A stretch of 64,000 bases of DNA from Moheibacter sediminis (lineage in GTDB: Bacteria; Bacteroidota; Bacteroidia; Flavobacteriales; Weeksellaceae): contig NZ_FWXS01000001.1 of NCBI RefSeq assembly GCF_900176425.1, positions 62,001 through 126,000 of the forward strand. Reading direction: 5' to 3'. Position 1 is the stretch's first letter; each line of letters opens with the position of its first letter. Of this stretch, positions 2,734 to 52,869 are shown piece by piece. The notes under the pieces are model-generated. The model was given only the letters and a program-made list of their open reading frames with translations, searched no databases and was not told the DNA's origin. The position numbers and the translations under genes are program-made.

Positions 2734-3731
2734 TACTTTAATTTTCTAAATTTTTCATTGGGTTTTATTTCGGGAACGGTATTGTCTTCCAATTCCAAAG
2801 GTTTGATTTTTTCAATCAAATCTTCCGCCCACTTTCTGTAAAAAGAGTGCTTATACTCGTCAGGTTCCGATTTTGCAAATTTTACCAAATCCGAATCGTA
2901 TAAAAATTCTTTTAATTTCTCTAAATCGTTTTTGTCTAAATGAGTAGTTTTCCTGAAATATTCAATCAAATCGTCCGATAATAACTCAAGCGAAGAAAAG
3001 GTGTAAACGCAACCGATATACCTGCGCAAAGTATAAGACAAATCTGAATAAAACGGATAAATTTGTTCTTTTTCCAGGTATTTTTTCTTGTCAATGTTTT
3101 TCAAAGATTCCATCGCTTCTTCGTAAGGCGTTTTGATGTTATAAGATTTCTCGTCTTTTCGTTTTTTATCACGAAGAAATAAAATCAAAACAATCAATAA
3201 CGCAATGAGAACAATCGCTCCCACCACAAAATAAACCCAATATTTGGCCCAATAATCTTTCCACGTATATTCTTCATCCATGATGGGTTTGATGGGAAAT
3301 CCACCCAGATTCGCAGAATCAATTTTTACCTCATCGACCTTGATTTGAAAGGAAGCGGAAAGCAAAGTATCATCGTTTATAATCACCGGAAACGAACGAA
3401 TCAGAAAATCTCCCGGGTCGAAACTCGTAATCGATAAATGTTGGACCAATCTTTTCTTTTCCCCATCTAAAACGGTATCGATTTTTTGGTCGAGAATTTC
3501 GATGTGAAAACTCAATGTATCTTGGAATTGAGGAAGTTGAATTTTATCTTTTGAATTAAGGGGAACGCTTAATGTATATTGAATCGGTTCACCAATTTTG
3601 ATACGTGTAGTATCGATTTCTGTTTTGACTTGACCGAAAGAGAAAATAGAAACAAGGCAAAAGGCAAAAGGCAAAAGGCAATAAAACCTCCAACAACCAA
3701 TAACCAGCAACCAACGACCAATAACCATCAT
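2733..3731 (-). CDS. Bat-operon single-pass membrane protein (BatD/DUF4381-like)
   Basis: 332-aa protein with a signal peptide (about residues 1-33), a beta-rich extracytoplasmic region (35-150), one TM helix (165-186) and a cytoplasmic helical domain ending in a Lys-rich tail. The cytoplasmic part contains YPFYSDLSYTLRRYI, a pattern seen in proteins found between DUF58 and BatA in Bacteroidota. A DUF4381-like or BatD-like role is likely, but I cannot assign the family firmly. It overlaps DUF58 by four bases (ATGA at 3728-3731). The first ~25 codons are built from tandem 7-bp repeats (3656-3726), so the signal peptide appears to have arisen from a repeat. A later start would remove the export signal. 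Confidence 0.75.
   Translation of the reverse strand: MMVIGRWLLVIGCWRFYCLLPFAFCLVSIFSFGQVKTEIDTTRIKIGEPIQYTLSVPLNSKDKIQLPQFQDTLSFHIEILDQKIDTVLDGEKKRLVQHLSITSFDPGDFLIRSFPVIINDDTLLSASFQIKVDEVKIDSANLGGFPIKPIMDEEYTWKDYWAKYWVYFVVGAIVLIALLIVLILFLRDKKRKDEKSYNIKTPYEEAMESLKNIDKKKYLEKEQIYPFYSDLSYTLRRYIGCVYTFSSLELLSDDLIEYFRKTTHLDKNDLEKLKEFLYDSDLVKFAKSEPDEYKHSFYRKWAEDLIEKIKPLELEDNTVPEIKPNEKFRKLK
3656..3726. repeat. Heptad repeats inside a signal-peptide coding region
   Basis: On the plus strand GGCAAAA occurs three times in tandem (3656-3676) followed by GGCAATA. After a one-base phase shift come five heptads of the form CCAAYAA (CCAACAA, CCAATAA, CCAGCAA, CCAACGA, CCAATAA; 3690-3724). The stretch encodes almost the whole signal peptide of the 2733-3731 protein. 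Three heptads equal seven codons, which explains the recurring VIG-W pattern at residues 3-13. Confidence 0.85.
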
Positions 3732-4603
3732 TTCACAGAATGTTTTTTGAAATAATTCAACAAAGGTTTGATATAATCTTCATCGGTTCGAATGTTCAGA
3801 TTTCCTGCGCCGGAAAGATTAAAATTCTTTTCGAAATTTAATTTTGCCAAAGCATAAAATTCTTCATAATTCTTTCTCACAGCAGGTGAAGAAGTATTGA
3901 TCAATCGTTTTTCTCCGGTTTCATTGTCCTGAATTGTAACCAATCCAATATTTGGGAAAAAGGTTTCTTTTTCGTCATAAATTCTGATTCCGGTGATGTC
4001 ATGTTTTTTAGCGGCAATTTTCAGATTGCGTTCATAATTTCCTGCATCTACAAAATCAGAAAGCACAAAAACATTGGCTTTTCGTTTGAAAGAATTCATC
4101 AAAAATTCCAATGCTTTTTCAAAATTTGTAGCTTTATTTTTCGGTTCAAAATTCACCAGTTCACGTATGATTCTGAGCACGTGTTTTTTTCCTTTTTTGG
4201 GCGGAATGAACAATTCCACTTCTTCCGAAAAAAGAATTAATCCGACTTTATCATTGTAAGTAATTGCCGAGAAAGCCAGAGTCGCACAGATTTCCGCAAC
4301 CGTTTCTGATTTCAATTGTTTGCGCGTTCCGAAATTTTCCGAAGCACTGATATCGACCATCAAAATCATCGTTAATTCGCGTTCTTCTTCAAAGATTTTA
4401 ACATAAGGCTCGTTGAAATGCGCGGTTTTGTTCCAGTCGATATTTCGGACGTCATCGCCATATTGGTACGGACGGATTTCAGAAAAAATCATCCCACGAC
4501 CTTTGAATGAACTATGGTATTCGCCCATAAAAAGATTGTTGGCTTTACGACGGCTTTTAAGCTCGATTCGTTTTACTTTTTTAATGATTTCTTTTGTGTC
4601 CAA
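3728..4603 (-). CDS. DUF58-domain protein
   Basis: 291-aa cytoplasmic protein of the DUF58 family, which accompanies MoxR ATPases and VWA proteins. The family core is visible at residues 44-60 (RPYQYGDDVRNIDWNKTA), then EEERE and a VWA-like strand with MVDISAS at about 83-89. The start is a TTG at 4603. I keep it because the resulting N-terminus (MDTKEIIKKVKRIELKSRRK) matches that typical of flavobacterial members, and the next Met is only at residue 26 inside the conserved domain. The gene lies between moxR and the 332-aa membrane protein in the Bat operon. Its role is presumed to be chaperoning or regulating complex assembly with MoxR. Confidence 0.9.
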   Translation of the reverse strand: MDTKEIIKKVKRIELKSRRKANNLFMGEYHSSFKGRGMIFSEIRPYQYGDDVRNIDWNKTAHFNEPYVKIFEEERELTMILMVDISASENFGTRKQLKSETVAEICATLAFSAITYNDKVGLILFSEEVELFIPPKKGKKHVLRIIRELVNFEPKNKATNFEKALEFLMNSFKRKANVFVLSDFVDAGNYERNLKIAAKKHDITGIRIYDEKETFFPNIGLVTIQDNETGEKRLINTSSPAVRKNYEEFYALAKLNFEKNFNLSGAGNLNIRTDEDYIKPLLNYFKKHSVK

Positions 4604-49768: not shown

Positions 49769-51304
49769 TTATTTCTTCACAATTTTAAAAGTTTCAATTT
49801 GTCCATTTTCTAATTCCATTCGGAAAACATAAACTCCCGGTGGAAGTGAAGACAAATTCACTTGATTGTTTGAAATCTTTGGGTGTGTCAAAACTTTTTG
49901 TCCTTCCAAATTGTGAACAGAAAGCGTTTTGATTTCTTTTTCTGATTTGAAATTCAATATATCGCTTGTAGGATTTGGGTAATATGAGAAATTGAATTTT
50001 TCCAAATCCTCTGCATTTAAAACTTCTTCGCAAACTAATTTATAAACGAATTCTCCTCCGGGCGCTATAAATCCAGTTCCATCATCTACTACTGCAAACC
50101 TTCCGATTGTAGAATCTGGATCATAGGTAATTACCCATCCGCCTGCATCTGATTTAACCTCCATCCAATATACTGTATTGGGTTCTAAGGTTAGGGGCTG
50201 GTCGAATTCTAGTGTATAATTTAAGAAGTCAAATCCATGCAAGGTTCCATAAACCTCCTCGCTTAAGATTTGTGTTGTTGTGGTTGCAATTTCAGTTCCT
50301 GGTAAAGAATTTTCGTTTGATAGTAGTGTAACTTCAAAAAATGTTCCTGCAAAAAATGCTGAAAGCTCTAAGCCTTCTATGATAAATCCATTGTCGCCAA
50401 CTGGGATGTCAGCAAATGTACGGAACTCGAAAAAATATCCATCTTCCATGTTGTTATCCAACACCAAATGGTCTGAGCAGTTTTCCGGTGCTTCCGGCAT
50501 CGCTTCGCAGGTTACATTAATCACATAGTCTCCAACATAATCCGTTTCCCCAAATATTCCATAACCCTCGACCATTATGTAATAAGTTGAAACGCCATCT
50601 GAAACAAAAGTAATTTCGGACTGTTCACCACATTTGTTATCATTGTAGGCTACAAGACTGGACAAAGTACAGTCGGTGTATATTCTTAAATAAGTATCGT
50701 AGTCTGAGCCGCACAATGATACTGTAACGATTTCTTCTTCACCCGAACCTGTGTAAGAATAAAAAACATCTGCATAAGGGTAGCCTCCTGAGTCTGTAGC
50801 GATTGTGGTAGTGCCTGAAGAACTATCACCACAAGCCAATGGTATGGCATTTTCGCATTCGTCATTTTCTACAGGAGGTTGTATGTCTCCGCATTGAACT
50901 CTTTTTTCTCTGTTACTGTCGGCTACGCCATCTACACTACAATCCTCATCAAGATGCGTGTAAAATCTTACAATTTGGTCGGAAGTTGATTCATAACTAA
51001 CGGATGAAAATCCTGCGGCTAAAACAACAGTTCCGTTTTCATCACCAATGGTAATCAAGTCAGTTGATTTTGAACTTGAAAAAATGTAGGTATTTCCTGC
51101 TGTAAGTTGTATCAAGGCATATCTGCCACTTATGTTTGCAAAAGAAACATTTTCATAGTGGCCTGAACAGGTTGGAATAAAAGTTTGTAAAGGACTTGGA
51201 ACATTTTGATAATCCGGGTTATTAATTAAACATCCGTCTTGGGCGTTACCATAGGAAAATAACAGACAATTAATTAATGTCAGAATTAATAAATAATTTT
51301 TCAT
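49769..51304 (-). CDS. Modular secreted protein with T9SS sorting domain
   Basis: 511-aa exported protein (ATG at 51304 gives MKNYLLILTLINCLLFSYG; an ATG three codons earlier is possible). After the signal peptide comes one copy of the 243-aa module also found twice in the 1072-aa protein (matching FYTHLDEDC, NDECENAIPLACGDS, SLCGSDYDTYLRIYTDCTL). A second beta module (about 265-420) resembles residues 195-355 of the 1072-aa protein. The T9SS domain runs from YYPNPTSDILNF to FKIVKK. It lies downstream of a TPR/HTH regulator, with a repeat-containing promoter region between them. Probably a surface-binding protein. Confidence 0.88.
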   Translation of the reverse strand: MKNYLLILTLINCLLFSYGNAQDGCLINNPDYQNVPSPLQTFIPTCSGHYENVSFANISGRYALIQLTAGNTYIFSSSKSTDLITIGDENGTVVLAAGFSSVSYESTSDQIVRFYTHLDEDCSVDGVADSNREKRVQCGDIQPPVENDECENAIPLACGDSSSGTTTIATDSGGYPYADVFYSYTGSGEEEIVTVSLCGSDYDTYLRIYTDCTLSSLVAYNDNKCGEQSEITFVSDGVSTYYIMVEGYGIFGETDYVGDYVINVTCEAMPEAPENCSDHLVLDNNMEDGYFFEFRTFADIPVGDNGFIIEGLELSAFFAGTFFEVTLLSNENSLPGTEIATTTTQILSEEVYGTLHGFDFLNYTLEFDQPLTLEPNTVYWMEVKSDAGGWVITYDPDSTIGRFAVVDDGTGFIAPGGEFVYKLVCEEVLNAEDLEKFNFSYYPNPTSDILNFKSEKEIKTLSVHNLEGQKVLTHPKISNNQVNLSSLPPGVYVFRMELENGQIETFKIVKK

Positions 51305-51380
51305 GTGTATCATTTTGTTAATGTTTTACGCTATGAAATAGGAAAATTGAAGGAGGGGAGGGAGTGAATAAAATTCAGTA

Positions 51381-51411
51381 CAATTCTATCTTAATCATAG
51401 CTAACTGCCAA
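51381..51411 (-). promoter_or_regulatory. Probable promoter of the 511-aa cargo gene
   Basis: Minus strand: TTG (-33) at 51409-51411, a 20-nt spacer, then TAGAATTG (-7, one mismatch) at 51381-51388. It implies a leader of about 70 nt. The 51417-51472 direct repeats lie immediately upstream. Confidence 0.45.
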
Positions 51412-51416
51412 AAAAC

Positions 51417-51472
51417 AGCATCCTCAAAAGTGTCCCTACCTAAGATTTGGAGCAACCTCAAAGTGTCCTTAC
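51417..51472 (-). repeat. 22/23-bp direct repeat, candidate regulator binding sites
   Basis: 51417-51439 and 51451-51472 are the same sequence, differing by two substitutions and one single-base indel. Both read AGCA-CCTCAAA, then GTGTCC, then TAC on the plus strand. Starts are 34 bp apart (about three helical turns). They sit just upstream of the promoter-like sequence of the T9SS cargo gene and just downstream of the TPR/HTH regulator gene, where an activator would be expected to bind. Confidence 0.6.
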
Positions 51473-51510
51473 TTTGAAATCTATTTTACAAAGTATTAAA
51501 AATCAAAATT

Positions 51511-52869
51511 TTAGAAATCATGAAACCATTGATAAATATCGGTTCCATCGGGTATATTTAATTTTCTTCGGATGCGGTATTTTTTATTTCTGACGGTTTT
51601 TGCTTCGATATTTGTGTAAGCAGCAATATCTTTTGTAGGGATTTTCAACTTTAAAAGGGCACAAAATTCTATCTCGGACTGAACTATTTTTGGATTTAAT
51701 TCTAATAATTTTTTAGAGAATTCAGGAAAAGCCTCATCAAAATGAACCATGAAAGATTTGTCTTTATTCTTTAGAATTTCGACCAGTTTAGAATAGTCAT
51801 AATTCCAAATATTTGTTTCTGATTCTTTCGAAATAGTGTTTTTTCTTTTGAGAGATTTTCTCAGTAAAAAATAAAAAATTATCAATAATAAGATAACAAA
51901 AACCGAAAATGCAATGATAGCATTTTTCCCAAACATGGGTTTTTCATTTTCGTTGAGTGCGCGAAGCAGATATTTCTTTTGATTTTGGGAAATTAATATG
52001 GTGAGAGAATCATTTTTGGATTTATATTTCGTAAGATTTTCCTGATCATTTAGTTTTTCATAGGCATCAATTACGTTGGCATAAAGTAATTGAATGTTAT
52101 ACCAATCTTTATATCCTTTTATTTCTTCCGCTTTTTTAGCGTAATTAATTACATCCTGATACTTTTCTTCTTTTAAAGCAACCTTGCTTAGAACCATGTA
52201 ATTGTTGAAGATGTAATCACTTTTTGCATTTTTTGCCTTTAAAGATAATAACGCATAATGTTTTGCAGAATCAAGATTGTGCTTATAAAAAACTACAGCC
52301 AAGTTGGAATAACCCATATACAATTCCTTTGCATATTGGTTTTCATTTGATTTTTTTATGTATTTAATTCTCGTTTCGAAATCCGTATGATAATTTGATA
52401 GACATATATAGATGTTGGAACGAGTGAGCATTGTCAAAGAATCATCGGGAGGAGATTTTTCCAAAACTTTTAACGCATATTCCAATGCAGCCCGCCATTT
52501 TTTTGGTTGCGAATTATGGTAATAAATCTCAGATTGATAAACTTTGGCAGAAGCCTCATAAATAGGTTCGTTGTACAACTTGGCTTTTTGTTCCAGTTTT
52601 TTTGTCATTTCCATAAATTTTTCATAATCAGAAGCATTTCTGTAATATTTGCACTGAGTCATGATAGCGGTTAATTCCGCCTTATGCGCATTGATTTTCT
52701 TTGCATTTTTTATAAATAAAACTGCTTTTTCAAAAGCTTTTTTAGGATTTTCATTAAAATTATTATGATTTGCCTGAGTTTCTTTTAGTAGCTTTTTTTG
52801 CGGGTCATTTTCTTGAGCGATTGAAAATGTAGATGTCAGAAAGAATATAAATAAAATAAGTACCCTCAT
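51511..52869 (-). CDS. TPR / transmembrane / LuxR-type HTH regulator
   Basis: 452-aa one-component regulator with a signal peptide (about 1-18), TPR helices over about 30-300, a TM helix near 315-337 followed by RKSLKRK, and a LuxR-like HTH at about 390-452. The HTH reads VQSEIEFCALLKLKIPTKD, then IAAYTNIEAKTVRNKKYRIR. No receiver or kinase domain is present. The domain order matches the regulators at 25971 and 43096. The downstream gene on the same strand is a T9SS cargo with repeated elements in its promoter region, a likely target by position. Confidence 0.86.
   Translation of the reverse strand: MRVLILFIFFLTSTFSIAQENDPQKKLLKETQANHNNFNENPKKAFEKAVLFIKNAKKINAHKAELTAIMTQCKYYRNASDYEKFMEMTKKLEQKAKLYNEPIYEASAKVYQSEIYYHNSQPKKWRAALEYALKVLEKSPPDDSLTMLTRSNIYICLSNYHTDFETRIKYIKKSNENQYAKELYMGYSNLAVVFYKHNLDSAKHYALLSLKAKNAKSDYIFNNYMVLSKVALKEEKYQDVINYAKKAEEIKGYKDWYNIQLLYANVIDAYEKLNDQENLTKYKSKNDSLTILISQNQKKYLLRALNENEKPMFGKNAIIAFSVFVILLLIIFYFLLRKSLKRKNTISKESETNIWNYDYSKLVEILKNKDKSFMVHFDEAFPEFSKKLLELNPKIVQSEIEFCALLKLKIPTKDIAAYTNIEAKTVRNKKYRIRRKLNIPDGTDIYQWFHDF

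Follow-up and report, generated by a model that had tools for sequence, protein, structure and literature searches.

Head-to-tail 11-bp direct repeats upstream of a promoter are the arrangement of OmpR/PhoB boxes, and the well-studied members of the NarL/FixJ/LuxR type of regulator mostly bind inverted repeats. The type IX secretion system (T9SS) of many Bacteroidota exports a cargo of adhesins, enzymes, and other proteins; to our knowledge, the regulation of single cargo genes in this system has been little described. A further relevant group is the SusR-like regulators of Bacteroides, which according to PMC3878776 are inner-membrane one-component proteins with a periplasmic sensor, a cytoplasmic C-terminal DNA-binding domain, and surface-protein genes as targets. 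The same paper predicts their sites to be directly repeated on one face of the DNA, with centre-to-centre distances of 67 or 77 bp, states that site similarity tracks regulator similarity, and reports the SusR DNA-binding domain to be unlike any other known.

Here we describe a direct repeat in Moheibacter sediminis, located within a window (the whole stretch of DNA analysed) of 64,000 nucleotides, for which the predicted sites of SusR-like regulators are the closest precedent: the logic is the same, and the spacing, HTH type, and targets are different. As in SusR, a predicted membrane one-component regulator with a cytoplasmic HTH adjoins a surface-protein gene, to judge from gene order and a modelled topology. 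Where SusR-like sites are 67 or 77 bp apart, the units of a pair here are set at 11 bp and the two pairs at 33 bp, and the SusR-type lags were not raised over 38 spacers of the present kind (z -1.2 at lag 67 and 0.6 at lag 77). The predicted fold is also of the NarL/LuxR type, and the targets are T9SS-type cargo rather than SusC/SusD systems. The cytoplasmic domain is modelled with a fold like that of NarL/FixJ/LuxR-type regulators such as StyR, VraR, DosR, and LiaR, but the locus differs from theirs in its strong direct repeats and lack of short-gap inverted repeats, and the sensor is a TPR solenoid rather than a receiver or small-ligand domain. Head-to-tail 11-bp units 5' of a promoter recall OmpR/PhoB boxes, although the DNA-binding fold is another one, the pairs recur at 33 bp, and the units vary between paralogous regulator/cargo pairs. 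The element is undescribed in titles and abstracts among the open-access matches listed; the terms "LuxR" and "repeat" have zero occurrences in the main text of PMC6414381, as do "LuxR" and "direct repeat" in that of PMC9723704. We consider it probable, with good confidence, that the repeat serves as the operator of the neighboring membrane-anchored one-component regulator, comprising four head-to-tail half-sites on one DNA face and most likely activating the sigma-A promoter of the secreted cargo.

As a preliminary description of this DNA had proposed, a regulator gene lies upstream of the repeat and a cargo gene downstream; both are on the minus strand. The regulator (51511..52869, minus strand; 452 aa) is predicted to consist of an N-terminal hydrophobic helix, a TPR solenoid at residues ~23-308, a TM helix at ~315-342, and a NarL/LuxR-type HTH at ~397-436; the structural model has a pLDDT of 84.8, with helices at 23-308, 315-342, and 397-436. 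By prediction it thus has the TPR region, single TM helix, and C-terminal GerE-like HTH of a TPR-TM-LuxR-type HTH family of Bacteroidota, and a membrane-anchored topology can be inferred from the model. Its GerE match of 21.4 bits is under the 23.5 cut-off, and among eight paralogs GerE was matched in six and TPR_12 in seven. In Foldseek searches, NarL-type HTHs ranked top, with a best E of 0.079 (none reaches 0.001) and TMt of 0.67-0.84 for isolated C-terminal domains. The cargo (49769..51313, minus strand) is a secreted-type protein that carries a T9SS type A sorting domain; it has 514 aa from the first ATG, and the 511 aa given earlier hold if translation begins at the ATG at 51304. The C-terminal sorting domain was identified by profile (PF18962, E 9.8e-11; TIGR04183, E 6.4e-14) and the hydrophobic N-terminus by eye only. 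The genome contains at least seven further full-length regulator paralogs (L073-L079), each followed 125-275 bp downstream by a same-strand gene with a secretion-type N-terminus (by eye).

The two 22/23-bp copies reported at 51417-51472 are present, with two core substitutions and one indel between them. The distal copy runs from 51472 to 51450 on the minus strand (GTAAGGACACTTTGAGGTTGCTC) and the proximal copy from 51439 to 51416 on the same strand (GTAGGGACACTTTTGAGGATGCTG), with a start-to-start offset of 33 bp in the first part and 34 bp in the second. Each copy is itself a head-to-tail pair of ~11-bp units, which in the minus-strand reading, the direction of the genes, run AAGGACACTTT GAGGTTGCT ... 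AGGGACACTTTT GAGGATGC; the distal copy has its GG cores 11 bp apart and the proximal copy 12 bp, and matching cores of the two copies are 33 and 34 bp apart. The first two units form a candidate distal operator pair (51451..51470, minus strand; units 11 bp apart) whose start is 82 bp ahead of the -7 box, and the last two a candidate proximal pair (51418..51437, minus strand; units 12 bp apart) whose start is 49 bp ahead of it. The proximal pair has a motif score of 13.4, and its 3' end lies 5 bp before the TTTG of a candidate -33 box. Immediately 3' of the repeat on the minus strand we recovered the promoter-like element noted previously, composed of TTG (51411-51409), N20, and TAGAATTG (51388-51381). 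In the window sequence the candidate -33 box TTTG (51409..51412, minus strand) is 20 bp before the candidate -7 box TAGAATTG (51381..51388, minus strand), which has one mismatch to TAnnTTTG. According to PMC9723704, flavobacterial sigma-A boxes of the form TAnnTTTG occupy -12 to -5. On this basis transcription is predicted to start near 51376, and the proximal pair would lie at about -61 to -42, with the distal pair at about -94 to -75.

Taken alone, the chance values of this single spacer are only moderate; its gapped self-match (199 bp) was reached by 1 of 300 dinucleotide shuffles, and its best ungapped lag score (lags 8-60) by 7 of 1500. A chance or neutral duplication of ~22 bp in this one spacer would be compatible with such values, but the cross-locus evidence decides the matter: many loci share the lags and the -7-box distances, which already contradicts this explanation and makes it very improbable. 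Direct repeats may also be target duplications or element ends, and the repeat could in principle be the remnant of a mobile-element end or part of an invertible promoter. This seems more improbable still, given that the genome lacks dispersed copies, the inverted arms listed for the 1-kb region are AT-rich, imperfect, and 12-30 nt long, and the architecture is conserved at fixed promoter distances. Across the 3.2-Mb genome, the repeat-core pattern with up to three mismatches had, besides the proximal copy, a single further match (3 mismatches), versus one match for the reversed control, which indicates that the repeat is not dispersed; with that one weak further match, and none in viral contigs, we rejected a dispersed repeat or mobile element.

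We assembled spacers downstream of regulators that scored at least 340 against a profile of the eight paralogs and had a same-strand secreted-type gene downstream. This yielded 31 spacers from three genera: eight from the same genome, one from a sister species (L103), eight from the genus g9, which includes Epilithonimonas caeni (L201), and 14 from g20 (Chryseobacterium), the 23 of g9 and g20 having been drawn from 246 family genomes searched. Removed from the 34 regulators reaching 340 were L115 and L118, whose next gene is no secreted cargo, and L105, whose next gene is on the opposite strand; L119-L123 scored below 340 and were left out, and by eye a repeat is present in L119 and L120 and no obvious one in L121-L123. 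For every lag between 6 and 40, self-matching was compared with that of 100 dinucleotide shuffles. Two lags, 11 (z 9.7) and 33 (z 7.9), stood out from lag 22 (z 0.5) and from all remaining lags (z 2.5 or less), and lags 11 and 33 without 22 are the layout of the window: a pair, a gap, and a pair. Over 38 spacers, the maximum among lags 41-100 was at lag 44 (z 3.3), the sum of 33 and 11. By subset, z11 and z33 were 7.0 and 4.6 in the own-genome paralogs, 1.5 and 9.4 in g9, and 5.5 and 2.0 in g20, whose 14 spacers are orthologs and hence not independent. Seven additional named loci, none of them among the 31 (Aequorivita, Gelidibacter, Flavobacterium cerinum, a Marinifilum-labelled MAG, and three Chryseobacterium), gave z11 of 8.8 and z33 of only 1.2.

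The 11/33-bp direct repeats, together with a fixed distance to the -7 box, recur at paralogous and orthologous regulator/cargo loci, and the repeat thus passes the test of conservation in relatives set beforehand. By comparison of these sequences, the repeat of the window is one instance of a wider conserved element of Chryseobacterium-like bacteria, namely paired 11-bp repeats at set distances upstream of a promoter. The spacing of three helical turns suggested earlier, with binding on one DNA face, fits the conserved 33-bp lag; the accompanying suggestion of two dimer sites needs refinement, as each copy comprises two 11-bp head-to-tail half-sites, four in all, and no palindromic dimer site. 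When 36 promoter-anchored regions were considered, direct repeats were again enriched, with z of 13.0 at lag 11 and 8.2 at lag 33. For inverted repeats whose arms are 0-9 bp apart, z was -2.4 to 0.8 in the same 36 regions, and a palindromic site of the NarL/LuxR type was dropped for this lack of short-gap enrichment. Inverted repeats with longer even gaps were raised in these operator regions (z of 4.6 at gap 16, 3.8 at gap 18, and 2.2 at gap 12, with 100 shuffles); the weak gap-16 excess is present alike in the Chryseobacterium half and in the half made up of other loci, and we count it against our main reading.

A motif found unsupervised in the 31 spacers, aAAGTATcTaATGAGTAt.T, corresponds to a pair of 11-bp units, and in 29 of the 31 the start of the pair lies at a standard distance from a TAnnTTTG-like box. 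Three distance classes were observed: 49-50 bp at eight loci (the window, at 49, with L073-L078 and L096), 69-71 bp at the 14 Chryseobacterium loci (exactly 70 in 12 cases), and 82-84 bp at seven loci of g9, an Epilithonimonas-type genus. The window combines two of these positions, its proximal copy being at 49 and its distal copy at 82. L079 and L103 had no motif match at any standard distance, and motif scores were low (8.7-10.1) in L073, L075, L076, and L096. The -7 boxes of the window, L073, L074, L096, and L102 each differ from the consensus at one position, and each was chosen over a second candidate; L125 has an additional exact -7 box at 52.

These positions bear on the direction of regulation, and our preference for activation is inferred from site position only. 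The sign of regulation is unreadable from sequence, and with the proximal pair so close to the -33 box the site might mainly repress, the regulator blocking polymerase at the promoter until a signal releases it. However, 5 bp separate the end of the proximal pair of the window from the candidate -33 TTTG downstream of it, the -7 box is left uncovered by this pair, and the Chryseobacterium pair, 69-71 bp before the box, is further upstream and better suited to an activator than to a blocker. A reverse-oriented site at a second T9SS-type gene, considered further below, is likewise upstream of the core promoter, and this measured position (44-45 bp before the -7 box) led us to drop the idea that it covers the -33 box as a repressor site would. 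Because the second-gene site proved to be upstream of the core promoter, we rate a mainly repressive role lower and regard it as unlikely; activation by the neighboring regulator remains our preferred reading.

The combined lag-11 and lag-33 signature is absent from control regions. No lag-11 excess was found 5' of 34 close-subfamily regulators (z11 0.1; lag 10, z 3.0), in ten other intergenic regions of the window (z11 0.7), or upstream of seven cargo genes of the same genome that lack a directly adjoining full regulator (z11 -0.4). Among 91 other promoter-bearing intergenic regions from the fetched loci, which may include a few regions 3' of regulators where a locus has several regulators on different strands, z11 was 4.5, but lags 8, 10, and 14 were just as high (z 4.5-4.8 for all four lags), and z33 was -0.3. 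Expressed as excess bits per spacer, the 38 spacers reached 3.87 +/- 0.67 at lag 11 and 2.63 +/- 0.74 at lag 33, versus 0.92 +/- 0.37 and -0.03 +/- 0.19 in the 91 intergenic regions. Full-motif scores were 19.6-28.2 in the 14 Chryseobacterium spacers versus at most 12.0 in 23 regions upstream of cargo paralogs. With weights derived from 13 non-Chryseobacterium sites, which had themselves been located using the full motif, the Chryseobacterium spacers scored 6.9-23.2 versus 3.0-11.8 for cargo paralogs, with 4 of 14 inside the control range. A single locus is a natural control: in L082 the TPR protein (1553-2638) upstream of a cargo gene (2792-4195) matches the regulator up to about the TM helix and not in the HTH, and the spacer has no GG-type units by eye.

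One may postulate that the site is a real operator for another protein, such as an OmpR-type response regulator, and that its linkage to the TPR-HTH gene is incidental; OmpR/PhoB sites are the classic example of 11-bp units repeated head to tail, and binding by the linked regulator is itself only putative. The signature nevertheless sits beside these regulators, and a lag-11 excess is found downstream of distant regulators of the same type as well (z 3.4 at 34 loci; z 8.6 at 27 loci), but it is missing both from the seven own-genome cargo genes without an adjoining full regulator and from the 23 cargo-paralog regions. Moreover, the units differ by paralog, where a single shared regulator would predict a single sequence. 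We consider a different binding protein rather unlikely on these grounds, and favor the linked regulator as the probable binder.

A strict pattern, AAGTAYNHAATGAGTAY, had ten matches in 23 genomes. Seven adjoin the regulator, and two are upstream of the second T9SS-type gene; a further strict match, in the 30-contig assembly of a Chryseobacterium (G167), is upstream of the cargo ortholog, with its -7 box at exactly 70 and the regulator on a different contig. In this genome the repeat has been kept with the cargo apart from the regulator, which indicates that the element is part of the cargo promoter rather than a mere trailer of the regulator gene. The 455-aa form of the cargo was found in none of the 33 Chryseobacterium genomes whose best regulator match is weaker than 1e-65; in 19 of these genomes there is just a paralog, whose frame is 694-699 aa long, and the other 14 have no match at 1e-60. 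The converse fails, as Chryseobacterium G152 and G240 have the regulator and lack this cargo form.

Operator sequence also covaries with the regulator. Over 19 loci, HTH identity correlated with operator similarity (r 0.36; reached in 0 of 2000 Mantel permutations) versus r 0.01 for an adjacent 26-bp control region, and the correlation was r 0.22 (p 0.009) when only pairs with TPR identity below 0.5 were included. TPR identity gave slightly higher values (r 0.46, and 0.33 for the restricted pairs). As the TPR correlation equals or exceeds that of the HTH, the coupling is to the whole regulator and not to HTH specificity, and we set aside HTH-specific coevolution, which is inseparable from overall relatedness (TPR r 0.46 versus HTH r 0.36). 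The clearest matches are two that cross genus boundaries: own-genome L079 with Flavobacterium cerinum L199, at 91% identity in the HTH, 39% in the TPR region, and 77% in the operator window, and own-genome L073 with Aequorivita L195.

From these observations a sequence of events can be proposed. The TPR solenoid is predicted to be periplasmic, with a single TM helix passing through the inner membrane to a cytoplasmic NarL/LuxR-type HTH. The repeat suggests that HTH monomers bind the 11-bp units head to tail, so that neighbors would share a face of the DNA with one helical turn between them. Both pairs, 33 bp or three turns apart, would be occupied on that face; the proximal one, at about -61 to -42, is just 5' of the -33 box. 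The regulator would then most likely recruit sigma-A RNA polymerase and switch on the secreted cargo. Diverged unit sequences at paralogous pairs further suggest that each regulator may mainly serve its own cargo. Tentatively, and with slightly less than even confidence, we extend this to a large Bacteroidota family of TPR-HTH membrane regulators that would share one operator grammar (11-bp units, a 33-bp pair offset, and a helical phase that is fixed relative to the -7 box). The units would have diverged, giving many parallel, mutually insulated lines per genome from sensor to secreted protein whose targets could be read from sequence alone. Such a readable grammar, if true, would make the targets of many unstudied membrane regulators predictable and testable by simple reporter or binding assays, and might supply a set of insulated regulator/promoter pairs.

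Several minor observations concern other sequences near these genes. Downstream of distant TPR-HTH regulators, L137, L155, L163, L171, and L176 have repeats of the type GTAATATCTAAGTAACATCTG immediately followed by a T-rich run ending in TTTTG, like a -33 box. The second T9SS-type gene (442 aa) has close orthologs, 72-100% identical, in 11 genomes, and in 8 of these a reverse-oriented Chryseobacterium motif lies upstream of it, namely at L282 (the same genome as L185), L283, L285, L286, L287, L289, L186, and L277; the motif is absent from L284, L288, and L290 and from all 14 diverged copies. At the six loci measured, the site starts 44-45 bp before the TAnnTTTG box, approximately the position of the proximal pair in the window but reversed, and the gene is perhaps a further target of the regulator. 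We did not retain this second target as proof of regulator dependence, given that the species lacking the close regulator carry no ortholog other than a diverged one, and five diverged copies in regulator-bearing genomes also lack the site.

The sequence TCTATTTTACAAAA or its reverse complement occurs after the stop codons of several regulator-type genes in either orientation, and four of its five exact genome copies are found there. It is present with one mismatch at 51480-51493 of the window, exactly in L075, L077, L078, and L082, and in similar form in L073 and L074. As a part of the system, TTTTGTAAAATAGA/TCTATTTTACAAAA after the regulator stop was set aside, its 11-bp core occurring 48 times in the genome versus 21 for the reversed pattern. 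Lastly, the regulator/cargo pairs of L075, L076, L077, and L078 are at contig ends (contigs C26, C8, and C16 of the M. sediminis assembly, G000), where the contig stops inside the cargo gene. Repeated cargo genes may fragment this assembly; three of the cargo genes cut in this way have similar starts.
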